Shown piece after piece: positions 951 to 61,639 of a stretch of 64,000 nt of DNA. The notes beneath the pieces are model-generated. The model was given only the letters and a program-made list of their open reading frames with translations, did no database searches and was not told the origin of the DNA. The number at the start of each line of letters is the position of its first letter. Positions within the stretch are counted from its first letter, which is position 1. Source of the stretch: Capitulum mitella (Eukaryota > Arthropoda > Thecostraca > Pollicipedomorpha > Pollicipedidae); NCBI GenBank assembly GCA_030062745.1, contig CP099841.1, positions 21,889,398 to 21,953,397 on the forward strand, in the 5' to 3' direction. The position numbers were made by a program, and so were the translations under genes.

Positions 951-3837
951 ACTGGTCTTTTGTAATGCCTTTTGATGAACTTTCCATGCTACGCCCTTAA
1001 TCACGAAAATTCGAGGACGCTTTCACCATGCCTCTCTGGCGAAGCCACGTTCAGCAGGAAAAAACCACGCTCATCGGTCGGCATACGTCGGAGGCGGTCC
1101 CAGTCATCAGGAGACAATCTACGCTTGCCAGCCACGAACGCCCACCGCTGACCCGCTCGGTCTGCCCTGGGGCGGGGCACGGCCAGGACCTGTCGCCGGG
1201 GTACGGCCACGCCCGCCGGCACGGGGTCCGGCCGGAGGCACGGTGTGTAAGAGGAACTCTCCCCCAGAGGAGGGTTCCTTCCCACCACTGCGGGGTCCCG
1301 CCTGGGTTGTTCGCAGTGTGCCGGGGACGGGCATGTCCCTATGCCATACCGTACTCAGATAGGTCATTATCTGCGATAAACCTGGCGGAGCTGCTTCGTG
1401 ATTTGTGCATTTACAGAACACCTGCGAAACAAATTATCCACCATACCGAGCGTGGCGGAAGATCAGTCGCTGGATGTCACGGGAGAAAAACGCCGCCATA
1501 TGGCTGATTCAGTTGGTACGATTTTCCACTGCGAGTTCCCGCAGTGGAATTTCGTAGCCGCCATTTTTACGGGTATGGTCGATTTCCATTTCATAAATTT
1601 TTGCTAGCCCTCGGAAATTCTTGCACATACTTCTGAAGGAAACCGAAATTAAGTAGTAAAAGCCTTCATCCAAAACACATTTCAGGCACTGCAAATGAGC
1701 AAACTATTTTAATGAAAAGTATATGGCCATTGCATACCACAACATTTACATAAGTGTGGTTGTTTTAGTTATGACCGATTAATTACGGCGTTTTCGAGCG
1801 ATACCCTTGGTCAACAACCCTTTCGATATCCTTGGTCGACAACTGCATTTCGAGCCTAGGGTGACGTACGACAAGCAGAGAAGTTTTCAGTTACAACAGC
1901 CGCAATCAGTTGAGGCCGTATAACAACAAAAACCATCTGATAATTTCATGCAGCTACAATGAACGTCTTCCTGCGCCACCTGGTCCGGCTTATAAGGAGA
2001 AATTGCTACACATTTGGAAAAAGTTCAGTAGCAAGGCCAGTGTGCGCGCAACGGGTTTGGCTACACATGCATCGTGGTTCTAACACCACAAGCTTAAATG
2101 CGTTTGGCCAGATTTATAAATTGGATTTAAATAGTTAGACGTTCACACATTCAATGGCATCGGTTGCCGCATGTTTTCTTGCAGTCCTGCAGCATCTAGT
2201 GACACTAACAACTGACAAATCAAAGGTTTTTCTCGTCGATCGGTTTGTATCGCAGCTACCAGTTGAACGTGCATCCAGGTTACACATTTTCTGCGAATGA
2301 ACACATCTTCTGGAGGTCGTGGTGCACGACGTCCCCAGGGACGCCAAGGCACATTTAGTGTCTCCGGAGTGCGGTTGTGCACTTGTCACCTTAAATGCGG
2401 CAGTTTACGTTTTGTCAGCAATTAACTCCGTGAACAGCGATGCAGTCCCCAAAGTACATTTGGAACCGGTGCCCACCGGGCAAAAAGTTGGTAAACGCAA
2501 GCTGTAAATGAGTCTCTCGAGCCACAAATAAAGACCTCTGACATTTTTTGCCGCCCTGGGCGACTTGCTTACGTTTATAAGTGTCATCGAATACGGCAGA
2601 AAACAGCAGTGCGGGCGGCAGGTGCACCTGCTCACCAGCCCCCTGGTAATCGTTAATTTATGCAACATGCCATCAAGTCGTACGACAGTAGTGTGTTACC
2701 TCGGTGGCCAGAAAACTCTGAACGGTCGATGAGGCTCTGTTCAGAAATGACGGATCTTTGCGTTCGTGTGCTGCATCATTAACCGCTTCTTTTCCTCCGA
2801 CGTCCACCAGGTCCATGGACACTTAGTTCGGCACAAGTATCGGCGTCCTACGTATGTCCGAGGTGACCAAGACTGCAATATGCATAGCAGGAAAATAATG
2901 GAGGAAGAGTTATGGTAAAACAGGAGAGGGCGCGACTAGATGCCGGCTTAACGGCAGCTTTAAGTAGCCGACCTCTGTTTATCGCCCAAAACTGGCTTAT
3001 CTTTCCGCAATGTCTCAGTTACGTCATCATTTTTCATTCAGAATGTGTATTGGACAAACCTGATTTAAAAATCAATTGTGACCTCTTTCAACATGAAGAT
3101 GGTACCAGCCTGTACCATTCTTGAAACAAATGCCATGTGACGATTCCTGTCACCAGCAGATTGTCAGCTGGTCGTGATGCATCGTATTTTTAAAGCGTAA
3201 TCTGTAAACGTTTTAGGCATGGCTAAGTTCTCCTCAGCACTGAAAAATGCTCTCGAAATCCGTTAAAACATCGGAAGGTGAAGCCGGACCATAAATCTCC
3301 AGGATCGGCGCATGGCACGAAAATAGATTGTCATGCAGCGGTCAATCAACTTTCAAATGGGCGGAAAAAGCAAGAAGCTGGTCAGAGAGACGAAATACTA
3401 TGCTACAGAATGTTGTGGTGATGCGATGTTTTTCCCGTGTTTGCGGGTTCAGCCTCTTTCATTCGTCATGAATTTACTAAATTTGACGTTTCGTCAGCTA
3501 CAGTACCTGCAGGCATTTCCAGGAGATGGCTTAAACTGCTATGGAGATCATCAGGCGCCCACGTAACGCCATTATCAAAGGACATGCCGGTAATAGCGCA
3601 CACAAAAATAGCCCGCTTGAACGTAATGCGTTTATTCTACAACGAAGCCATCTTGTTGTCTGGCAGCATAAGGAAAATGTGACCGCTTTTCTCCATCATT
3701 TCAACAGCCCTTGTCATCAACCCAGTCCGTAAGAAACTTAAAAATAGCAACTAGGTGCTTTTTCAACGTTCAAACGGAAGAACCTCTGGCGTATTGACAT
3801 ATGAGCATTAGAAGCCGGAAACTACTTCTTCTCTACT
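951..3837. other. Intergenic, no gene seen
   Basis: A short GC-rich patch lies at about 1,130-1,320. Elsewhere the stretch is of ordinary composition, with only short open frames lacking a family signature. Confidence 0.4.
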
Positions 3838-9629: not shown

Positions 9630-9796
9630 CCCTAACCTAACCTAACCTAGCATAACCTAACCTAGCCTAACCTAACCTAACTTCGCCTCACCTCACCTCA
9701 CCAACCTAACTTAACCTAGCCTACCCTAACCTAACCTAACCTAACCTAACCTAACCTAACCTAACCTTACCAACCTAACCTAACCTACCCTAACTG
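9630..9796. repeat. Interstitial telomere-like (CCTAA)n tract
   Basis: About 165 bp of CCTAA repeats on the plus strand (TTAGG on the minus strand). The longest uninterrupted run is at about 9724-9766, mixed with variants such as CCTAG, CCTCA and CCTTA. TTAGG is the ancestral arthropod telomere repeat. The decay and internal position indicate an interstitial tract, not an active chromosome end. Confidence 0.9.
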
Positions 9797-14239: not shown

Positions 14240-14499
14240 AGACTTTCGGAACTAGGGGTGCGGCCAAGATGTTCTTAATGGGGGGAGGGGGCGGAGCTCA
14301 GCGTGAACTGACATCATACGGAAACCGCTGCTGGGAAGATGTGCAATGTCTTTTTTTTTACAAATAACGCGGACCTAAGGGGATGGGCATAGGTCCCCTG
14401 GCCCCTCCTTTGGATGCTCGGGTGTTTGGAACCGTTATTATTAAATGCCATTTTGACATGAATTTGATTCACCACCACTAATTTGAGCTTTGTCAAAAC

Positions 14500-16199
14500 C
14501 TAGCTGTAAAAGAGCACATTTACGGTGGTTCAAATCACCTGCCTAAGTTCGATTTAGAAACTGACCATGCTACACAAATTATCCAGAAGCAAAACCCTAT
14601 TACTCTTTAATCTTCACTCACCCGGAGAAGATCTCGAGACCGCCCTCAAATCTTCTAAACATGACGGAAAAAACCTTTCTCCTGGCCGGAAATGGGTGGT
14701 GGATGAGCACCCCTCAGGCTGTTTGAGGACAACTAAAAACGGAAATGCGCAGAGATACAAAACTTAGAGTGCCTCTTAATACATCCCTTTTACACCTTGT
14801 GTAAAGTTTTAAACTCAGGATCACTTCAGGTAACTGACCTGGGACAGGTCAAATCAAACCATGCCCCCAAAAATGAAACTGACATAACATTTTGCGAAAT
14901 GCGCCGATTGACATCGAAGTGGGCACATTGATATGACATGACAAAGGGGACAATTCTGCTATCACGAATTTTCCGGAAATTTCCGGATCATTGCCCTGAG
15001 GTCATCTAAACTTGCGGCCTTTCCGCGTTTGCTATTGAGATTGCGGGACTGATTTGGTGGTTCTAAAGCTTGGGTATACACCATGTTGCCTCTAAAGTTA
15101 TTTTTGCATGCGTGATTGGTCCTCTTGACCGGTGACCTGGGGTCAGGTCGCGTTTCGTGCCGAATTTTCAGAGCCGCGACCGTGCGCAATTCCTTGGTTT
15201 ACAGTCGGGAAATGTTTGTAGGTAGTTATATGTGATTTGGAAGTCCTAATGCACTGGCAAAAACTTATTTGCCAAGGGCGATCCAATGCAGTTTGACCCA
15301 AGTTGACCTGATTTAACCTTAAAAATATCATGTCTATTTTCCATGCAAACACACTTCGTATGGCCAAATATGATAAGAACTATCGTCATGGCTTACTTCT
15401 GCACAGTGTGTGTTGTCACAAGCCTCCTATTGTTGGTCGCCAAAATGAAAACCCTTCCCGTTGCGGAAATAGCTTCTCACTATTAGGCCTTTTGCATTGC
15501 GGTCGTGCCCGCAGTCCGGTATCTGAGAAACTTACGTTAAAAATGCTTTTCGGCACGGGTTTCATGATGTACAAGGGTTACTATATGACCCGATGTTATA
15601 AAATTTCATACTGTATCGTGTCAGAACAGTGACAATGTGGCAGACGATGCGACAAAATGAGGAACTACCGTCGTATCGGCGTCAATGCCTTGCCTTAGTT
15701 TGGCCCTATTTGACTTTAATATGATAGTTGCAGTCTTCATATGCATGTCAAACACATCTGCGGCACATTTCAAGGCACATGCTAAAGCATTCAGAAAAAT
15801 CAAGGCTCCTGCCCCCACCCCCAAAAACGATTTTTTGCACTCATCTTCCGCTTTCATTCAGATGATCAAATTCGGTCTCAATCGCCATTTTTCCCCCTCG
15901 TTTGTAAATCAGATCTTCATTAAATTTATAAAATCTTTTTGGAGTCACGGAGAAGCCTGGTTATTGAAGTTTTCTGCCAAAAATTAAACACGGTTAGTTG
16001 ACCTGTGATGGCCTTTGGTGACATCAGTATTGACCGTATTTGAAAAATAGGTGTTTTTTTCTAATTTCGCGAAGTGCTTTCCAATGGCGCGTTTTTCTTC
16101 CAATGGGAGGCTTATAGTTCTCGAGATCTTGGGGGTGCTCATCCACCCCCGGCCTGGCGAATGTTTCAGCCAGCGGTGGTGCGGAGGCCGGCCCGGCGA
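14500..16199. repeat. Mosaic of decayed TGACCT-rich elements
   Basis: This block carries text shared with the other half-site-rich elements of the window. For example, CTGCTATCACGAATTTTCCGG near 14,957 parallels 32,615 inside the TTAA element at 32.3-33.6 kb. Near 16,115-16,165, TAGTTCTCGAGATC followed by a G-run/C-run hairpin matches, on the opposite strand, the subterminal region of the elements at 45.0 and 52.9 kb. Boundaries are not recoverable by eye and several fragments are probably joined. Confidence 0.5.
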
Positions 16200-17560
16200 G
16201 GGTTCAACAAGGTACGCCACAAAGGATGTAATCGCATGCCAGCGATTGTCAGCAAGAGATATTGACAAACGAAACACGTTGCTCTTATTCCAAACTAATT
16301 TAATACAAAATGTATACCGTTAACGTTTGGGGAATTTCTCTGACCTGACTTCAAGTCAGCCATATTGGGATGCAGTTTTTGGCCTTTCTGCCAGAAACTG
16401 TCCTGCGCAAAAACGGTTTTGAGTAATAAAAAAGACAAAAATGTCCTGATACGCTTTTGAATGGTGCAAGATACCGTTTGTAAAGGGCCAGTGATTAGAT
16501 CTGAGATCAGGTCATTTGGTTACAAAATCGAATGTACGAGAAAATGGGCATGAAATGCATTTGCTATTCACTTCTGATAAGGCAGAAAGGCATTTTAATT
16601 TATGCTCGTAAAGCCTTTGAAATACCACGACATTATGAGACCTCACACGACCTGATATCATTTCAAAGATCATTTGTTGCTTGGGACGCCGTAGAATTTC
16701 ATGGAACGTTTCAAGGCGACGCATAGATTTGGTCTGACGTGTTTTATTATGTTTTTTAGATATAAACAATTATCTGTCTGACATGAGTTGGCCTCGCATG
16801 ACTGTATTGGCCGAAGAAGCTCATGTTTAATAACTCGAACCGTTTTTATGATCTCAGACGTGTTTTCATACCGTGCTGTGTTCTGTGACACCGTGATATT
16901 TTGAATGAGACAGACACGTTTTTCCTCATATTGTTCTTGGGCCGATCTGAAGTGACCTGTCCATGACTTCTGCGTCATTCAGAGACATATAAGCATGATG
17001 ATAGCGATCAAATAACATTTGTTTGACATTCGTACCCTTACCCAATCACGAAACACGAATGTTGCAAGATATGACCTTAGATGACCTGATATGACGTTCA
17101 ACGACCTGCATCAGTCTTTTCTGATCAAAAGTTGTCATATGTAACCAAACATTAGCAATAATGTAACCAAACATTAGCAATAGTGATTTAATTCAACATA
17201 AATCCCTATTGTATTCCCGTGGCTCTTAACCTGATCTGACATGATCTGGTAATTCTTTTTGCCTCAAATTATTATTTTTAATGAAGAAGCATTTCTGCCC
17301 CTTCTTAGGCTATCCGATACTCAAGATCGTTTTACAGGACTGTCATATTTGCTTTATTGCCCACAGATTTTTGGAATCAAGACATGACCTTACTTGGCCT
17401 TTTGACCCTACAATGCTACTTCAAAGTAAAAAATGTGGGCTTTCTTCATAGAATGTAACGAGCTTTCGATTGGTGTCCCCTTCATCTTCGTGGTTCTCTT
17501 ATTTTTCGAGATCACGGAGGAGGGATTCTCAAGAACCCCGCCCGCTCCCCGCCCTCCCGC
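16200..17560. repeat. Dispersed element copy 1 (pair with 34.15-35.48 kb)
   Basis: It aligns almost end to end with 34,150-35,480. Shared landmarks are GCCAG..ATTGTCA near 16,239 and 34,200; GATACGCTTTTGAATG versus GATACGTCCTTTGAACG; GCATTTGCTATTCAC versus GCATTTGCCATTCGC; and TTATGCTCGTAAAGCC versus TTATGCTCGTGAAGAC. Many TGACCT hexamers are present. A 22-bp direct duplication of GTAACCAAACATTAGCAATA at about 17,141-17,183 occurs only in this copy. There is no open frame of note, so it is non-autonomous. Confidence 0.8.
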
Positions 17561-30000: not shown

Positions 30001-32327
30001 GAAAATTCCAGTTCTAAAACGTTCAGCCATGAAGACCTCGTTTAAGGCCATGGGTGGTATGCATTGACTTCTCACAATACTAACCACACATGCTGCAAGC
30101 TACCGGCCATTTTTCACGACTTGTACACCAATGAGGATCAAGCAAACTCGAAAAATTGTAAAACGCCATCAGTTTCTTGACATGGTTTTGATATGGTCTT
30201 GGATGATTTGACAACAAAGCCATAAAAATGCGCAAAATTAATGCACCATTGGTGCTAAGAATTTGACGACATTGCCTCCTTCGGCTTTGGAATTAAACAA
30301 CAGGGAGAGAACATGGGGACACTGGACACCCCAAGTCGCGTATTAACAAATTATGTTTGTCCTGCAAACGCCGCAGTCATTTACTTCTTAATTTTTCGGT
30401 GCAGCTGGGAAAGAATTATGCGAATAAAGCATCCAAGGATGGGTGTATCGATTGCGAATACGCTTGAACATAAATAAAAGCTCTACTACCCGGTGTGCAA
30501 GATGTGCAATTTATGTACATGCAATTAACACAAATAACAGTATAAACCGACATGCGGCTGACTGTTCATAGCATATTTTCCGAACACAAAGGCACTTAAA
30601 CACAATGCGCTCCAAAGGGCACGTAAAAGCACAAGCCTCAGGACCAGGGGAGTTTGCCTAAGACATTACAGCCCTAATTAGGTGGAAACAGGCATTGATT
30701 TTGTACAATGAATTGTTATTTCTTCAGCCTGCAGGACTGTTTATGTACATTGCCAATTTTACAGAAACAGTTTGGACCATTCTTGCCACAATGACCAAGT
30801 TGAACATTGCTGGCAAAATACTATGTGTGTGAAGCCGCATACAAAGACATTGCAGTCTGATGCAAGAATATGCCTTTTTCATTAACTCACGCTAGTATTC
30901 ATCTGGCCACCTTCGGCAACAGATGGAGCTCACATGACCCTCGGTCATTTCCAAACCTGGCAAGTGAAACAAAAATAAGCGTGTAGCTTGTCCTTTTGGC
31001 TACATTATCATATCTCGTTTAACGATTTCAACCAACACACTGACCTTACAAATACCTTCAGAGGAGGTCATATCATTGGGTCCTTTGGCAAGTGACCTAT
31101 GGAGCACTTTTGAGAGGACAAAAACCGTTTCTGGCGATGGAATGGGGCTCAGAATGTTAGTTTCCGATTATCTGATGACTATTAGAAGTTCAATGGAAGG
31201 TCAAAAGATCGGTGATCTCAGTTCATGATTTTGACCTAAAATGACCTTGGCCCAATGACATCTTAGCTAGATTAACAGTTGTGACAATGTCCCTCTGGAT
31301 TAACGACTAAGGGTATAAATGCACTCATGAGGCGATTTTTTGCAGGTCTGCTTTTGGTTTTACTGTAGCAATTAGTATTTTGATAGAGGGTTTGACGTCC
31401 AAAACTTTTCAGGCTAATAAACGCAAATGATGCATTGGTTCGCGGACATTCATTCGCCATGCGGCAGTTAGACGGATTTTGCATATTTGTGTCAAGCCGG
31501 ATGCACTGAGTGCACTTTAAGCTGATGAGCTTGTCATTCTTAATAACGTTTGCGTCCCCGACAGACTGTGGAGGGCAGTGCAGAAAACAACATATTCAAC
31601 AGTTATATCTATGGCCCTGATATATGGCACTGCTTCACGCGACCATGTGCAGGAAAGCCCTATAATTTCCGTTTGGCTTTGTTCCATCGTTTTTAAAAGT
31701 ATTTGTCTCTGGTCTTAATCACGCCATAGGTATTTTGATCCAGGTTAAGTGTTATAATTCATGTATATCGATATCGGGATCAGTTAGCGGAGCCATCGCT
31801 CAGTTTTATGTGAAATTTCGCACCAAGCCTATTGTTAAACGATGATTCAGGAAGCATCGGCTCTTTTTTGTTCCCTAACTTTTCGAAAGTTTGTTAAGTC
31901 GTGTTGGAAACTGTGAAAAAGGTCCCGCTTATCCTGCCGGCGTCGGGCTTCGTCTATTGAATGCGCCGCAGGGCATACCACGACGCATGCAAAAGACGAT
32001 GAGCTCGTGCTGACTTAATGAGTTGCAGTGAGCCGCACTTGACCAAGCTGACGGCCCAGTCCAGTATCGAGCTGAGAAAGCCGTCTCAGCCCTGTGGGGA
32101 TCCCAGCACAACAATCCATCTAAGGCGAGCGGATTTATTTTGCTTTTATGCGCCAGCTTTCAAATGCAATGGGTGTTTAGAAACAGCCTCGGACGGCCTT
32201 AGGTAGCTGTTTATCGGCTACAGTAATGTTTACAACTTGCCGAGATGTATTTCAGTCGCTAAATGCCATGAACCGGGCGAAATGGCACTTTCTGCGTTGG
32301 CTGGAGTGTCCTGATGCACAAAACGAC
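27086..32327. other. Long gene-free stretch
   Basis: About 5.2 kb of mostly unique-looking, AT-leaning sequence. The longest frame (minus, 27,255-27,737, 160 codons) has no family signature. No repeats, hairpins or exons could be supported. Confidence 0.35.
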
Positions 32328-33553
32328 TTAACCCGTCCCCGACTGGGGGGGGGTTGACTGCCCCCCCCTGAGGTTTTTCTGGGAGTGCGAGAGAACTAAC
32401 AAACACCGATTCACGAAACTTTGTGTACCTTTTGCTCCATCAATTTTACATCTTGTATCAAAATTTTGACCTCAGGTCACGTCAGGTGCCTAACCTAGGT
32501 CAGGTCAAACAGACCTATGTCAAAAAAAGTTTAGCGACCTCTAACTTTTTCGCAAAACAAGATATCTCAATAATACTTTCAGGGATTAGTGATCGTGATA
32601 GATGCAACAAATCTGCTATCTCAGATTTTTCGGAATTTTTGGGCCATTGACCTAAGGTCAAGCCCATTTTTAAGACATATCGCCATTTTTTCCGGAAATT
32701 GACGGAACATTCCATAACATTTTTACTGTGGAATGAAGCAGACATCTGGTCACCGTCATTGGGCAAAGTATCAGTGACTTCCAGCCATTGACCTGAGGTC
32801 AGGTCACGAATAACTGTAGTGGGCCAAAATGCACCACCGTCAAAATCGACGATGAATTACTCAGAATGGGTAGAAAATGGCAGAACTAGCGTGCGCAGAC
32901 GTAATTAATACCAGGAACCTCAAAAAGTTTGAAAAAGTAGCATATTTTGGAAATAAACAGGCTCTCGCGAATAAAGCTCCGCCAACTTTGTACATTGGCA
33001 ACTAATAAATTTTTCCAAAATTTAAGCACGAGAAACCATCACAAGAACCACAAAGATCAATAAAATTGACATAGATTGTCTTTTTTCGCGAAAATAAAGG
33101 AACGCTAAAATTAGTTCCCGTCAATTTGGTACCGCATACGGCCGCGGCGCACACTTCACCGCTGACGGGAGAATTACGGTGTCTTTAACTCAACGTTTCG
33201 TCGTATACATTGAACAAATCTGGGGGAATTAGACGTGTATCGGCATCCGCGGACATTTACTTGTGCGCTGGTGCCTTTACCTATGCGTTATTAGTCACAG
33301 TCCTTGAGATTCAGGCCATTTCTCGGTCTCATGCAGTCGGCTATGAGAAAACATATATAGGGCGTAAATTGGCTTAAATATTATCTAAAACTAAAAATGA
33401 GACCAGTTTCGAGCTCTACTCGTCACAGGCTTTCCAACGGTATGCTTATTTTTATCGTGCGACCAACCGTTCGCGAGTTAGAGGGGGGGGCAGTCAACTG
33501 CCCCCCCCCAGTCGCCGGTGTTCGGGACGGACCGACGGTCGTGCGCGGGTTAA
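32328..33553. mobile_element. TTAA-flanked MITE-like element, family B
   Basis: The element starts TTAACCCGTCCCCGACTGGG (TTAA at 32328-32331) and ends GCGCGGGTTAA (TTAA at 33550-33553), 1,226 bp in all. TTAA target duplication plus ends beginning CCC is the piggyBac-type signature. Just inside each end is a G-run/C-run palindrome around TTGACTG or CAGTCAACTG. The right end carries about 30 extra bases (33,515-33,545) between the tip and this palindrome. The interior is rich in TGACCT/AGGTCA (nine by my count in 32,461-32,820). There is no transposase frame, so it is non-autonomous. Confidence 0.78.
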
Positions 33554-34149
33554 ATTTCAGGTCGAATTAACCATATTTTTTCTCTCCCAAGAAGACGGTA
33601 GACAGTTTCAACGGCTATGTTGTCAGCTGGTCTTTTGGAATCTGTAAATTACCCGACCGTTTTGCCATCGGATTTGCAAGATGAAGGCCACCGTTTCATA
33701 CCACCCTAATTCGGTGCTTCATACTGGTGTTTTAACTATCTAAAAAATCCCTATTTTGTCCCTTGATTACGTTTGCACGAATGATGAAAGGAGTTTGTCA
33801 TTAGACAGGAACGAATCCATGAAGACTGCACTCATGAAATGGATACCACTGTGACATAGGCCACCCGAGTACCGTGCTTCATTCTCATGTTGCACTGTCT
33901 GAAAACCATTCCTTTCTCCCTCAACCTTCGCTCACCAGGGCGGCGAGGGGTGGGGGTGGGGTCTCGAGAACCCTCCCTCATGTTTTCTGAACATGGCACA
34001 AAAACGAGGAGAGCTAGACACTTAAAATCTCCAGTAGCTGTCAGTACGTCATTTTTACATCTTGGGACAAAATTAAAAAGTAATGTTGTGTCTGGCTGTT
34101 AATGTTGTACAAATAAAAAAAAAACAAAAACAAAACAATATAATGTTGT

Positions 34150-35480
34150 CACTGGCGCATTTGATATTTGAGCAGTGCATCTCGGGAGTTTAAGCGTGTG
34201 CCAGTCATTGTCAAAAGATACATTGACAAACGTTCTAATCCTGTTGTGCTGTTCTCTGCTGTTCTCACCTCTAAAATAATGTTCTAATCTCCAGTCCATT
34301 GTCTACAAAATGTATGTTCTCAGTTCTTCGGAAAATTGTCTGACCTGACCTCAGATCAACCGTTCTAAAATGCTGTTTTTGGTCTTTGCCAAAAATCACC
34401 CAGTACAGGAGACTTTTTGGATAAGAAAGGGGATACAGATCGTCTGATACGTCCTTTGAACGATGCAACATACCGTTTGTGACGTTGGTGACCTGAGGTC
34501 ACGTTAGTTGGTTCCAAATTCGAATGCAGGACAAAATGCGTATGAATTGCATTTGCCATTCGCATCCGATGATGCATGAAACGTGTACATTTGTTTATGC
34601 TCGTGAAGACTTTGAGATGCCATGACCTTATGTGACCTGAAATGACCTAATATCACTTCAAAGGTCACTTGTCACTTGGGACGCTGTATTATTCCATGAA
34701 ATGTTTCAAGGCAGCTTAAAGAGCTGGTTTCACGCGCTTACTTTAATCTGCCTTCGAAATGCCAACAATTAGTCATTTGATCTACGTTGACCTTGCATGA
34801 CTGCATAGACCGCAAGAGCTTTTGTTGTATTGATTCCAAACTGTTTTTATGGTCGCAAATGCGTTTCAATGCTTCGTTTTGTTCTGTGGCACCATGATTT
34901 TTCAAAAGAGACAAGCACATTTTACCTCCTATCGCCCTTGACTTGACCTGATCTGACCTGTTCTTGACTTCTATGCCATTCAGGGACACATTAGCATGAT
35001 TATGGTGGTCAAATGTGGTTTGTTGACATTCGTATCTTTGCCCAACCACGAAATACGAATATTGTAAGATCTGGCCTTAGATGACCTGATATGACTTTAA
35101 ATGACCTATATTCATTTATATATACATTCATATTCATTCAAAAGTTGCCATATCTGACCAAGCATCGCCATGGTGATTCCGAAACGTATGCTGGAAGCAA
35201 CGTTACTTGAGTGCCAGTTTCTACATAAATCAGTGATGTATTCCCATGGCTTTTAACCTGACCTGACGTGAACTGAGGAGTGACAAATTGTTTTTTGACA
35301 ATGCAAAAGGCGTTTCTGGCCCGTTTCAAACTATTCGGCTGCCACAACTTTTGACCGTCATGACGTGACCTTGTTTGGCCTCCTGCCATACTTGATAAAA
35401 TTTGACGAGCTTTTGACTGGTGCCACTTTCATCTCCGTAGCTCTCTTAGTTCTTCACATCATCGGGTTCCGTAAATCACC
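34150..35480. repeat. Dispersed element copy 2 (pair with 16.2-17.56 kb)
   Basis: A collinear diverged copy of the element at 16,200-17,560. It contains the 15-bp near-palindrome GTGACCTGAGGTCAC (34488-34502) and many further TGACCT hexamers, for example at 34,620-34,670 and 34,930-34,970. It follows the family B element after about 600 bp. Whether the two were once a single larger unit cannot be settled by eye. Confidence 0.8.
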
Positions 35481-44990: not shown

Positions 44991-46204
44991 TTAACCCTAT
45001 TCCCGGAGGGTTAGACGGTATGGTCGATTCCCGGCAGAGGGGGGGGGGGCGGATTCGGCCCCCCTGAGATCTCGAGAACTACTTGTCCGATTTCATTGCA
45101 ACAAACGGCAATGGGTTTGCCGTGAACTACACTTTTATAAAAAGAAATTTTCAAAATTTCGAAATTCGTGGATGCAGGAGGCAAAAATGTCACAATGGGG
45201 GTACTTTTGACTTCATATAACTCTGTTGTTTATCGACCGATTTCAATGAAACTGGCATGAATCGAGAGATTATGGATAGGGCTTTTACCATGGGTCCGCA
45301 AATCTGAAATTCTGAGAAAATTCATGGGCGTTCACAGGGTTTCAAAAATAGAAGGATTAGTTTTCTAACAACTGAATGAACAAAAAAAGTAAAAACACTT
45401 TTTTGGCTTCTGCTAGTCATGCTATGCTAAAGAAGTAAAAATCGCATTACAATGTTTGTATAATGTTAGCAAAGGCGGTGCCAGGGACATGAAAAGGGGG
45501 AACTGCCATGGTCACACGTTTCTCAGATCAGCTTGTGACCTTTGACCTTAAATGACCTCCAGTGACCTTGGGATCACCTGGAATGATCTCGTGTGCATTC
45601 AATATTATCTGTAAGCGTTTTCAATCATTTGAATTCACTCTATTCCAAAAATTTCATTTCATGGTTATTGCGATATAGGGTACGCGTACTGACATTTTAG
45701 GTCATAGCTCCGTGACCTGACCTGATATCAAGCTGAAACTTGGTACACAAGTAGAAGGCACCCTTCTACGTCATATATATTCCGGGTTTGGCATTTGAAA
45801 AAAGCGCCGAAATTATTGCGAAAAAACAAATTTTGGCTTTTGACCTTGACCTGACCTTATAAAGTGATCTCAGACAAACAAGATTTTGTGTGCACATTGC
45901 CCAACTATTAAGCTATACATCCATATAAAGTTTTAAGTTCTATCTTAAAAACTCTGTTTTTAGCAGACATTTTTCTTTTACCCTCAACATGGCCAAAAAT
46001 GGCATGAGGTGCCTCCCAAAAACGTTGCCTGGCTCCGCCCCTGAGCAATGTCCAATTGTGAAATTTTGTCACGCCGCGTAGAAAGAATAGCTAGGAAAAG
46101 TCACCAGGTTTCGTGATGCTGCGTTAAAAAGTATGGAATTGGCAAGCAAAAAACCCGAGAGGGGGCGGATTCAGCCCCCCCCCCCCTGCCGGGAATAGGG
46201 TTAA
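44991..46204. mobile_element. TTAA-flanked piggyBac-type MITE, family A copy 1
   Basis: The element is 1,214 bp, with TTAA at 44991-44994 and 46201-46204 and inverted tips CCCTATTCCCGG / CCGGGAATAGGG. Just inside each end is a G-run/C-run palindrome around GGATTC. The left tip carries an additional stretch (TAGACGGTATGG) so that ATTCCCGG occurs twice; copy 2 shares this change. The interior holds ordered TGACCT hexamers at 45536, 45543, 45553 and 45563, with spacers of 1, 4 and 4 bases, and more at 45,690-45,870. There is no transposase frame. It sits inside the minisatellite array and splits it. Confidence 0.88.
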
Positions 46205-48640: not shown

Positions 48641-48809
48641 AAGAAAGATAGTGAGAAAAGCACTATGAACTCCACGCACAATCACGTGACCCATAAATAA
48701 CGTATTATTAAACAACAGTGGTTTACACTCCAGAAAAACCATACACGACCCCTTGCATGTACAACGTTAACCGTCTCTTTCTCCACCCATAGTGCTAGGG
48801 TGTATTTCT

Positions 48810-50010
48810 GTACAAGGGGGAGGGGGGGTTACTGGGTCCCCTGGAATTATTACGTCTCCAGAAATACCCGTCTGATTTTATCATAACAAACGACAATCGA
48901 TTTGCCAAAAAGTAAAAAAAAAAACTTGTAACCATAAGCGCACAAAATCTTGAAAGGGGAGGATACAGTGGAAAAAGTCAATAGGAGGGTATTTTTTGCT
49001 TGTTATAACACCGATATTTACGAGCCGATTTTGATGCAATGGCATAAATCGAGAGCTAATCGATGGGACTTTTCCTTTTGACCCATGCGTTCGGAATGTT
49101 GGGAAAATTCATGGACGTTCACAAGGTTTGGGAAATGGGAGAAGTATCATTTTAAAAGCAGAATTTAAATAAAGGGTTAGGACGTAAAACGTTTTTTAAG
49201 CTTTACTGGTCATTCTATACTTCAGAAGTACAAATCGAAATACATGTTTTACGTAATATTGCCATAGGCGTCAGGTACATGAAAAGGTATGTGATGTTTG
49301 TGAAAAGGTATGTATGTTAAAGAGCCATGAAAGGACTGTAATGGTCATATTTTCAACAGGTCAGCTCACCACCTTTGACCCTAAATAGATGCAAATTACC
49401 TCAGGTTTAATGGCATTGCCTTCATTTCATGGTGTTTAAAAATCTTCAGTCATTTGAGTTGACTACCTAAATGTCCTATTCACAGCTGTCGTGATATAAA
49501 ATATGCGCACGCACATTATTAAGTCATAGCTAGGTGACCTGAACTGATATCGACGTGAAACTTGAATGATAACTAGAGACCATTTTTTAAGCCATACGTG
49601 CTCCGGTAAGCAGAGGATACTTTTAAATCATATATGTTCCGGATTTTACATTTCGGTAACTAGCCTAAAAAATACTTGGACTTTTGACCCTGACCTTACC
49701 CTGTAAAGTGATTTCAAATGAACAAAAAAGCTTTTGTATATTTGCTCAGCTGTTAAGCTATACACTGATATCGCGTTTTAAGTTCTGTTTTAAGAGCTGT
49801 ATTTTTGGCAACCATTTTTCGTTTGCTTTGAACAGTGCCAAAAACATGCTGAGATGCATCCCAAAAAAGTGACCTGGCTTCGGCCCTGAGCCAAATAAAA
49901 CTATGAAAATTTAGCATCACACGTAGAAAAAACAGAGAGGAAAACGACACACTTTCGTGAAGGTCTTTAAGAACAATGCAAATGGCGAGCAAAAACAATC
50001 GGGCAGAACT
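48810..50010. mobile_element. Diverged relative of family A (copy 3)
   Basis: Collinear with the family A elements but much more diverged. Shared landmarks are CGTCTGATTTTATCATAACA near 48,870, the block around ATCGAGAG..TTATGGATAGG (here 49,048), GACCTGAACTGATATC near 49,538, and the closing text around CTGAGCCAAATAAAACTATG. The TTAA tips are not recognisable and the DR1/DR4 array is decayed, which indicates an older insertion. Confidence 0.7.
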
Positions 50011-50324
50011 TCTCATCTTCTTCTTATCTTATTCTGCTTCCTGTTCACCATACAGAAATAGGCTTAACTTGCACCATTCACAAAAGGATACCTGAAACTT
50101 GTGGTCTTTTAAGGTCAATTGCTTGGGATTTGTGGCCATCTTTTGGTTCTGAATATGCGTTTTTTAGACCAAGCTGTTCCCACCAAACCAACCAATTTTA
50201 TTTGCCAATTTTAGTTACTTTAATCCCAGTGCACCCACAGAAGAACAAGACGCAGGTGCCACCACCAGCCTCAGCTGGGCCTTTTTCGCAGAGCTTTCCC
50301 TCTGGCAAAGCCATGGCGCTGACG
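50011..50324. other. No gene seen
   Basis: No recognisable feature. Confidence 0.3.
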
Positions 50325-52880: not shown

Positions 52881-54099
52881 TTAACCCTATTCCCGGAGGG
52901 CTAGACGGTATGGCCGATTCCCGGCAGGGGGGGCGGATTCGGCCCCCCCCCCTGAGATCTCGAGAACTACTTATCCGATTTCATCGCAACAAACGGCAAT
53001 CGATTTGCCGTGACGTGAACTACATTTTTATAAAAGAAATTTTCAAAATTTTGAAATTTGTGGATACAGGGGGGCAAAAATGTCAAAATGGGGGGTACTT
53101 TTTGACTTCTTATAACTCCGTTGTTTATGGACCGATTTCGATGAAACTGGCATCAATCGAGAGATTATGGATAAAGCTTTTACCATGGGTCCGCAAATTT
53201 GAAATTTTGAGAAAATTCATGGGCGTTCACAGAGTTTCAAAAATAGGGGGATTAGTTTTCCAATAACGGAATGAACAAAAGAGGCCAAAACACTTTTTTA
53301 GCTTCTGCTAGTCATGTTATGCTAAAGAAGTACAAATCGCATTACAATGTTTGTATAATGTTAGCATAGGCGGTGCCAGGGACATAAAAAAGAGGGAACT
53401 GTCATGGTCACACGTTTCTCAGATCAACTTGTGACCTTTGACCTTAAATGACCTCCAGTGACCTTGGGGTCACCTGGAATGATGTCGTGTGCATTCAATA
53501 TTATCTGTAAACGTTTTTAATCGATTAAATTCACTCTATTCCAAAAAATTCATTTTTTGGCTTTTGCGATATAGGGTACGTGCACTGACATTTTAGGTCA
53601 TAGCTCCGTGACCTGACCTGATATCAAGCTGAAACTTGGTACACAAGTAGAGGGCATCTTTCTACGTAATATATATTCCGGGTTTGGCATTTAAAAAAAC
53701 GGCGCCGAAATTATTGCGAAAAAACAAATTTTGACTTTTGACCTTGACCAGACCTTGTAAAGTGACCTCAGATAAACAAAATTACATATGCACATTGCCC
53801 AACTATTTAGCTATATATTCATATGAAGTTTTAAGTTCTATCTTAAAAACTCTGTTTTTGGCAGACATTTTCCTTTTACCCTCAACATGGCCAAAAATGA
53901 CCTGAGGTGCCTCCCGAAAAACGTTGCCTGGCTCCGCCCCTGAGCAAAATAGAATTTTGAAATTTTGTCACGGCGCGTAGAAGGAATAGCTAGGAAAAGT
54001 CACCAAGTTTCGTGAAGCTGCGTCAAAAAGCCTGGAATTGGCAAGCAAAAAACCCGAGGGGGGGCGGATTCCGCCCCCCCCTGCCGGGAATAGGGTTAA
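52881..54099. mobile_element. TTAA-flanked piggyBac-type MITE, family A copy 2
   Basis: The element is 1,219 bp, with TTAA at 52881-52884 and 54096-54099 and the same tips, subterminal G/C palindromes and modified left end as copy 1. The two copies can be followed base by base with few differences. The TGACCT array is conserved at 53432, 53439, 53449 and 53459 (spacers 1, 4, 4). No coding frame for a transposase exists, so mobility would depend on an enzyme encoded elsewhere. Confidence 0.9.
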
Positions 54100-60920: not shown

Positions 60921-61639
60921 TGTCTGTGGAGTCGGCCTTGCGGATCGAGGTGGCCTTTTATGGAGTACGGCGGTTGTTACGGGTACCTCCATCGAAGTCC
61001 GACCGCAATAATGCCAAAGAGACTTCTTAACCGTTGAATCCGCTTGACGTTGGCGCAACCTGCTCAGGCTATTTGCGATGAATTTCCCCACCTGCGGAAT
61101 CCCACCTTCCTCAATTTCCCCACCTTCCCCACATGCGGAAGTGTTGCTGAACATCATGATGGTGGTTAAGACAGGCCTCATTTCTAAATATTCGACGCAC
61201 TTCTGACGCCGTTTCAAGCCTGTTGGGCCCATCTGGCAAAAGCAAATGACGTACGTTGTTTGGGCACTCCTGTGACTTGCTCGTTGATTGCATCAAGCAA
61301 CGTCTTAACATGCGCACGGGAAAAGGAGTCTTTTTGTGCCCCCGCCTGTTTTTCTTGAATATCTCAAGAACAGGTCGGAGCTGGTTGCTGCTACTTTGTG
61401 ACATTTATAGCAACTGAATAAGTCGTCGATTGACGCAAAAAAATCGAAAATCGGTCGGGAATGTTGAAGCTTCAAGCATTTAAAGTCAGACAAACATAAC
61501 GAAAACGACTGTTGTCGCTAACGAATGGGAACTTTTTGAAAGGACTAGCGTTCTACCTAAGCTTACCGTTCGAACACAGTCACGCGACGTCATTCGGGCA
61601 TAAGTGATGGATGTACCAAGACCAAAGTCAGGGTCAGTA
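60921..61639. other. No gene seen
   Basis: No supported feature. A short repetition of TTCCCCACCT lies at 61,082-61,130. Confidence 0.3.

Follow-up and report, generated by a model that had tools for sequence, protein, structure and literature searches.

Thousands of DR1-DR4-DR4 half-site arrays, probably carried as passengers by a TTAA-targeted DNA transposon, in the genome of Capitulum mitella

Within a 64,000-nucleotide stretch of the Capitulum mitella genome (hereafter, the window), we found two copies of a repeat, family A, that share an identical compound array of nuclear receptor-type half-sites (DR1-DR4-DR4), and exact matches to this array number in the thousands genome-wide. We put a probability of roughly two-thirds on family A being a non-autonomous DNA transposon targeted to TTAA, with an array inherited from its founder as a passenger and decaying at a near-neutral rate in the copies. 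The founder would already have borne a TGACCT-rich interior that included the array; mass amplification of this MITE-like element (about 1.2 kb, thousands of copies) would have copied the array with its spacing unchanged; and single copies would then have decayed at close to the neutral rate, leaving the array a passenger in most copies, the majority of which probably have no function. The ends, the TTAA target and the element-free counterparts of one insertion (see below) suggest a cut-and-paste element that was probably moved in trans by a separate transposase.

Both window copies lie on the forward strand. Copy 1 (44991-46204; 1,214 bp) has inverted ends consisting of TTAA and CCCTATTCCCGG, copy 2 (52881-54099; 1,219 bp) has exact inverted ends, and the two are 92.5% identical at ungapped positions; a scan of both revealed no overlapping open reading frame of at least 150 amino acids. 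The 16-bp end TTAACCCTATTCCCGG was recovered exactly, in inverted orientation, at 44991 and 46189 and at 52881 and 54084, and five matches with up to three mismatches occur in the window (0.43 expected). The array of copy 1 (TGACCTTTGACCTTAAATGACCTCCAGTGACCT; 45536-45568, forward strand) has TGACCT at 45536, 45543, 45553 and 45563, and that of copy 2 (53432-53464, forward strand), the same in every letter, has it at 53432, 53439, 53449 and 53459, exactly the positions and spacers (1, 4 and 4 bases) that an earlier note on this DNA had reported. A second half-site group follows on the forward strand in each copy, at 45699-45857 in copy 1 (AGGTCA at 45699; TGACCT at 45713, 45718, 45841, 45847 and 45852) and at 53595-53903 in copy 2 (AGGTCA at 53595; TGACCT at 53609, 53614, 53739, 53763 and 53898). 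Each copy thus holds ten exact half-sites (nine TGACCT and one AGGTCA, read on the forward strand), spanning 45536-45857 (322 bp) in copy 1 and 53432-53903 (472 bp) in copy 2; for copy 1, the count of ten in the earlier note stands and its extent of roughly 340 bp is corrected to the measured 322 bp.

These half-sites exceed chance by a wide margin: the window contains two instances of the compound pattern, against an average of 0.00 in 100 shuffles even when three mismatches are allowed, and the family A consensus contains nine half-sites, compared with a mean of 0.46 (maximum 4) in 5,000 Markov resamples. Direct repeats of AGGTCA spaced by 1 or 4 bases are consensus sites of nuclear receptors, and in both window copies the array half-sites match the DR1 and DR4 consensus at receptor spacing, such that the array is a textbook match by its letters and binding in vivo is possible. 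Elsewhere in the family A consensus, three stretches (approximately 85-105, 235-265 and 718-760) are alike by eye, being of the type CTCCGT...CCGATTT..ATGAAACTTGG, and may be akin to a motif present in other repeats of invertebrates.

Across the 477 Mb genome (16 contigs), the 16-base end occurs exactly 13,225 times (6,640 + 6,585) and the exact compound array 4,427 times (2,238 + 2,189), with zero matches to the reversed-pattern control in both searches. Hand grouping of the 100 ends that head the listing, every one of them on contig 1, gave 63 elements, and extrapolation from these 5.2 Mb gives an estimate of roughly 8,000 elements, or about 2% of the genome. For alignment, we used 57 copies, comprising 55 near-full-length copies among 60 of these 63 elements (five cut-short ones were excluded) and the two window copies; TTAA was present at both ends of 49 of the 57. 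Joined flank pairs yielded element-free counterparts in 1 case out of 38, an insertion at contig 1:267465 (L045). All 124 bases of its joined flanks align without gaps to window positions 61497-61620 on the reverse strand (85% identity) and, with one 1-base gap, to a second locus, L026 (124 bases, 84%), and a single 4-base site (CTAA in the window, CAAA in L026) stands in place of the duplicated TTAA. These counterparts support mobility of family A with a 4-base duplication, as judged from the alignments, although the fact that neither counterpart reads TTAA counts against the founder account. Nearest neighbours among the sampled copies differ by at least 1.6% (median 6.3%), so the sample gives no sign of very recent bursts. 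Together, the exact ends, the TTAA at both ends and the element-free counterparts bear out the TTAA transposon family proposed in the earlier note, and the thousands of exact arrays bear out that the family has scattered the array, which may or may not act as the hormone-response module that the note envisaged.

A TTAA target and ends starting with CCC are typical of piggyBac elements, and Kolobok elements also target TTAA. Family A has both the target and the CCC-starting ends, as in the piggyBac superfamily, and it resembles MITEs in its inverted ends, its 4-base target duplication with an unfilled site and, in the window copies, the lack of a transposase reading frame. Like piggyBac-type MITEs more generally, it combines the TTAA target and terminal CCC with short inverted ends, non-coding sequence and many copies. 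It differs from the best-matching piggyBac elements of the same genome, in that TTAACCCTATTCCCGG was absent within about 1.5 kb of the transposase match at all of the best 30 of 118 matching loci, none of which was accordingly retained as an autonomous partner. Of these 30 loci (L009-L038), 27 had different TTAACCC words, for the most part TTAACCCATTAACGCCCA, TTAACCCTTTAGTGCCCA and TTAACCCATTAGTGCCCA; two or more piggyBac families are represented, in which the open frames are long and the ends are, for example, TTAACCCATTAACGCCCA or TTAACCCTTTAGTGCCCA. A second candidate, a P-like transposase (PF21789, E = 9.5e-13) behind the left family A end of L042, was rejected because 30 other matches start at the same base, beyond the family A sequence, and none extends into it, indicating a separate repeat inserted in a family A copy. 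This P-like element begins at about position 1660 of L042, with a reverse-transcriptase-like frame (by eye) further in. Reading frames of four cut-short copies (L041, L067, L091 and L102), read by eye, included no recognised transposase, and a search of plasmid records with copy 2 returned no match.

The earlier note had described the array as conserved; in the sense of being kept by selection in the copies, this was not supported when copies were compared. Changes were placed by FastTree and parsimony on a tree of 55 copies chosen by their ends (terminal branches, 91% of tree length), with expectations from base-matched random columns and P values uncorrected over ten comparisons. On terminal branches, array half-sites changed 42 times (53.1 expected, P = 0.11) and array spacers 12 times (18.6 expected, P = 0.12), so the half-sites are not set apart from their own spacers, which are at least as well conserved; other half-sites changed 62 times (65.2 expected, P = 0.41). 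The slower change of half-sites than of spacers that would be expected of a receptor element was therefore absent from the family A array. Raw substitution across the 57 copies was 0.041 at half-sites, 0.065 at other non-CpG columns and about 0.027-0.028 at array spacers, and array half-sites changed nearly as often as other non-CpG bases of the element. Spacing was retained, as anticipated, with a gap inside the array in only 3 of the 57 aligned copies; the exact array was kept in 27 of 57 and in none of the 12 most diverged.

Several observations count against the passenger view: the array as a whole changed less often than expected on terminal branches (54 versus 71.9, P = 0.037, uncorrected), and all 24 of its half-site bases were intact in 25 of 55 copies, compared with a mean of 14.1 over 855 placements along the element, a value equalled or beaten by 11% of those placements and by 7% of the 358 that were CpG-free. 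On the same side, the 33-bp array fell at the 6.6th percentile of windows by summed substitution, the lowest of which lay not at the array but within consensus positions 92-127 and 460-504. Private changes in the array, which favour the passenger view, numbered 28 (mean of 22.6 over 855 placements; 87th percentile); shared variants, which count against it, numbered 42 (versus 101; 4.4th percentile). The array thus sits in a moderately quiet part of family A, and its decay after insertion is near neutral. On internal branches, changes numbered 8 at array half-sites (11.4 expected, P = 0.27), 1 at array spacers (3.8 expected, P = 0.18) and 3 at the half-sites of the second group (13.9 expected, P = 0.003, uncorrected), with 11 over all 53 half-site positions (25.3 expected, P = 0.009, uncorrected); this shortfall, which also tells against the passenger view, hints weakly at constraint on active lineages, more for the second group than for the array.

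Older sequence related to family A was also recovered. A relative in the window (48767-50067, forward strand; outer ends by eye and tentative) is 70% identical to family A over the aligned part, 48855-49995 (1,055 aligned bases), and has short insertions of its own. TGACCT is absent from all four of its array positions, and its match to the family A consensus is 0.717 at half-site columns and 0.70 elsewhere; at the relative's own four half-sites, columns match the consensus at 0.833, and one of the four is kept whole. Among the other old relatives, 0 of 4 array sites were intact in the neighbour of L055, 0 of 4 in L071 and 2 of 4 in L081. Since the first site does not read TGACCT in any of the four relatives, its T may be a later gain, with the proviso that ancestral and lost sites are indistinguishable in single decayed copies. 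A genome query with window positions 49180-49720 gave 953 candidates, 40 of which were scored, for 43 matches, the non-self ones being 67-78% identical.

The motif is also abundant beyond family A. With words of one or two letters excluded, AGGTCA led the hexamers of the window in over-representation (108 versus 27.7 expected), remained first without the two family A copies (88 versus 26.8) and was fourth when the B and C stretches were removed as well (46 versus 23.3). It ranked first in the pooled 88 kb of flanks of other loci (132 versus 39.6) and second, after TACATA, when the 25 kb of piggyBac flanks were taken by themselves (34 versus 10.9). Counted as presence per 300-bp bin, over 149 kb from which family A and the old relative had been removed, it occurred in 114 of 503 bins (56.7 expected; z = 8.1, where the standard deviation of z over all words is 1.9), ranking first of 1,884. 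The motif excess is therefore common to other sequence of the genome and not special to family A.

Its spacing is similarly skewed. Genome-wide, exact direct repeats numbered 32,896 at spacing 4 (reversed-pattern control, 499), 8,878 at spacing 1 (control, 208) and 949 at spacing 3 (control, 153), the control itself rising threefold from spacing 3 to spacing 4; TGACCTNAGGTCA occurred at 14,445 sites (control, 41) and AGGTCANTGACCT at 3,219 (control, 46). Much of the DR4 excess reflects copy number, since 46 of 100 listed DR4 rows were family A-like and 12 had the GACC spacer of a (TGACC)n satellite; the remaining 42, with 30 different spacers, were neither. These rows come from the start of contig 1, from the forward strand alone past about 0.73 Mb, and no fewer than 3 of the 42 lie next to rows with the GACC spacer; scaling from them gives approximately 13,800 DR4 sites outside family A and the GACC satellite, or about 15 times the spacing-3 total. 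In 148 kb of sampled sequence, with family A and the old relative removed and satellites masked, two AGGTCA at 10 bp formed the commonest hexamer pair at distances of 6-25 bp (12 versus 0.14 expected), and the next ten rows of the ranking were all words of a telomere-like (CCTAA)n repeat. Exact pairs after masking numbered 12 at 10 bp, 3 at 15 bp and 3 at 20 bp, and 3 of the 12 lie in pentamer-repeat remnants.

Other repeats of the window contribute to this excess. Stretches 14600-17560 and 30900-35480 hold repeats rich in AGGTCA, in some of which TGACCT recurs at a 10-bp period. Family B (32328-33553, forward strand) carries three TGACCTNAGGTCA palindromes, and its ends, as judged by eye, are TTAACCCG. 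Family C2 is represented by two forward-strand copies of approximate limits: one at 33930-35480, with 15 half-sites and with TGACCT three times at a 10-bp period (34623-34648), and one at 16200-17560, with 6 half-sites, of which 16304-17248 aligns to 34304-35275 at about 70%. Between these two copies, half-site agreement was 0.84-0.90 versus 0.72 overall, and 3 of 5 hexamers were kept in one direction (P = 0.017) and 3 of 14 in the other (P = 0.26).

Given such repeats, the genome-wide excess might be a matter of history rather than of binding: the AGGTCA-rich repeats would share one ancestor, or their arrays would have grown from short tandem units (a 10-bp TGACCTNNNN unit or the 5-bp TGACC satellite), and the shared spacing would follow from either. 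We consider this possible, though tentative; it concerns the genome-wide excess and is compatible with the passenger explanation. Consistent with tandem growth, there is a (GGTCA)n satellite at one sampled locus (L040), 12 of the 100 listed DR4 rows have a GACC spacer, and AGGTCA spacing in the sampled flanks peaks at -1, 4, 9 and 14; against it, DR4 remained prominent with satellites masked (even if 3 of the 12 pairs lie in pentamer remnants), and 42 listed DR4 sites included 30 different spacers. For common descent, kinship was assessed with ends trimmed and with the hexamer and homopolymers masked. Families B and C1 proved homologous (z = 16.9), and a weak opposite-strand similarity between A and B survived (z = 7.2), which speaks against the G/C-rich ends as its source and suggests a possible distant relationship between the two families. 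By eye, there is also a likeness among the cores TGACCTTAAATGACCT, TGACCTTAGATGACCT and TGACCTAAAATGACCT. On the other side, C2 aligned to none of A, B and C1 (z = -0.8 to 1.8): masked similarities of B and C1 to C2b (z = 5.4 and 6.0) vanished after trimming (-0.8 and 1.8), and that of A to C2b fell from z = 4.5 to -0.6 on masking of the hexamer (0.5 when also trimmed). By these z values, the window holds at least two non-aligning groups (A, B and C1 at most, and C2) rather than four independent ones. The AGGTCA and DR4 excess is shared by one or more repeat groups that fail to align to family A, which a single family A founder does not explain; the common DR4 register might stem from shared ancestry long ago, from tandem growth or from the use of a host factor.

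Use of a host factor would mean that the half-sites serve the element, by recruiting a nuclear receptor of the host (RXR/USP with a partner, HNF4, FTZ-F1, ERR or a DR4 binder) or some other protein that binds AGGTCA, either of which would aid mobility, for example by opening germ-line chromatin; active master copies would keep the half-sites, which several repeat groups would have evolved or retained. This seems unlikely to us. It would accord with the internal-branch deficit over all half-sites, with the top rank of AGGTCA outside family A by count and by bin, with the preponderance of spacing 4 over spacing 3 and the 42 listed DR4 sites of neither class, and with the disappearance of the A-C2b similarity once the hexamer is masked. 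However, the array alone has no significant deficit at the master level; several geometries are in excess (TGACCTNAGGTCA, AGGTCANTGACCT and DR1) rather than that of one receptor; the counts are inflated by copy number, and the control is also higher at spacing 4; A and B may be kin; and conservation along lineages concerns family A and one C2 pair only. We give slightly less credence to the further proposal that two or more repeat groups without common origin each retained or acquired AGGTCA in DR4 register because a host receptor or other AGGTCA-binder aids their spread, a by-product of which would be AGGTCA as the top hexamer and a genome seeded with tens of thousands of DR4 sites. That family A copies act for the host, as working hormone-response modules of which selection keeps some, is very improbable, despite the textbook DR1 and DR4 match and the mammalian precedents Alu-DR2 (PMC1785376) and RSINE1 (PMC8240256), given that half-sites have no excess conservation over spacers after insertion and that fewer than half of the copies, and none of the most diverged, keep the exact array.

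Family A would be a new case of a motif-spreading repeat, here in a DNA transposon. Ecdysteroid receptors govern arthropod moulting and metamorphosis. Mammals are known to have transposons that disperse preformed hormone-response elements, and family A would be a dense arthropod case; among the open-licence titles surveyed, we found no description of family A or of a comparable motif excess in an invertebrate. Even as passengers, the approximately 33,000 exact DR4 and 9,000 exact DR1 repeats constitute a large reservoir of potential binding sites, and the excess of spacing 4 over 3 (35-fold overall and, by extrapolation, about 15-fold outside family A and the GACC satellite) is a sharp and checkable oddity. 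The closest parallel is Alu-DR2 of primates (Laperriere et al. 2007, PMC1785376), which is likewise an element that spreads very many AGGTCA-type direct repeats: RGKTCA repeats spaced by 1 to 5 are given as receptor sites, and Alu elements carry 90% of the human genome's 108,582 consensus DR2 motifs, several of which recruit RARs, so that, in a further likeness to family A, the element accounts for the majority of genomic sites with one spacing. The differences are that Alu is a SINE, with DR2 arising largely by CpG deamination within the element and with RAR ChIP data (PMC1785376), whereas family A appears to be a TTAA DNA element with the compound DR1-DR4-DR4 already in its consensus. In mouse, RSINE1 circadian enhancers similarly scatter E-box and receptor motifs in a star-like family, a minority of whose copies are active, and, unlike family A, their motifs were imperfect and matured after insertion, with activity established by ChIP-seq and reporters (PMC8240256).

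Two minor observations concern short tandem repeats. The (GGTCA)n satellite at L040 occupies positions 2913-2942 and 2958-2992 of that locus (contig 1, near 111.6 kb) and differs from the telomere-like (GGTTA)n by a single base in each unit. A (CCTAA)8 run, made of the arthropod telomere unit, lies at window positions 9725-9764, in the interior of the chromosome.
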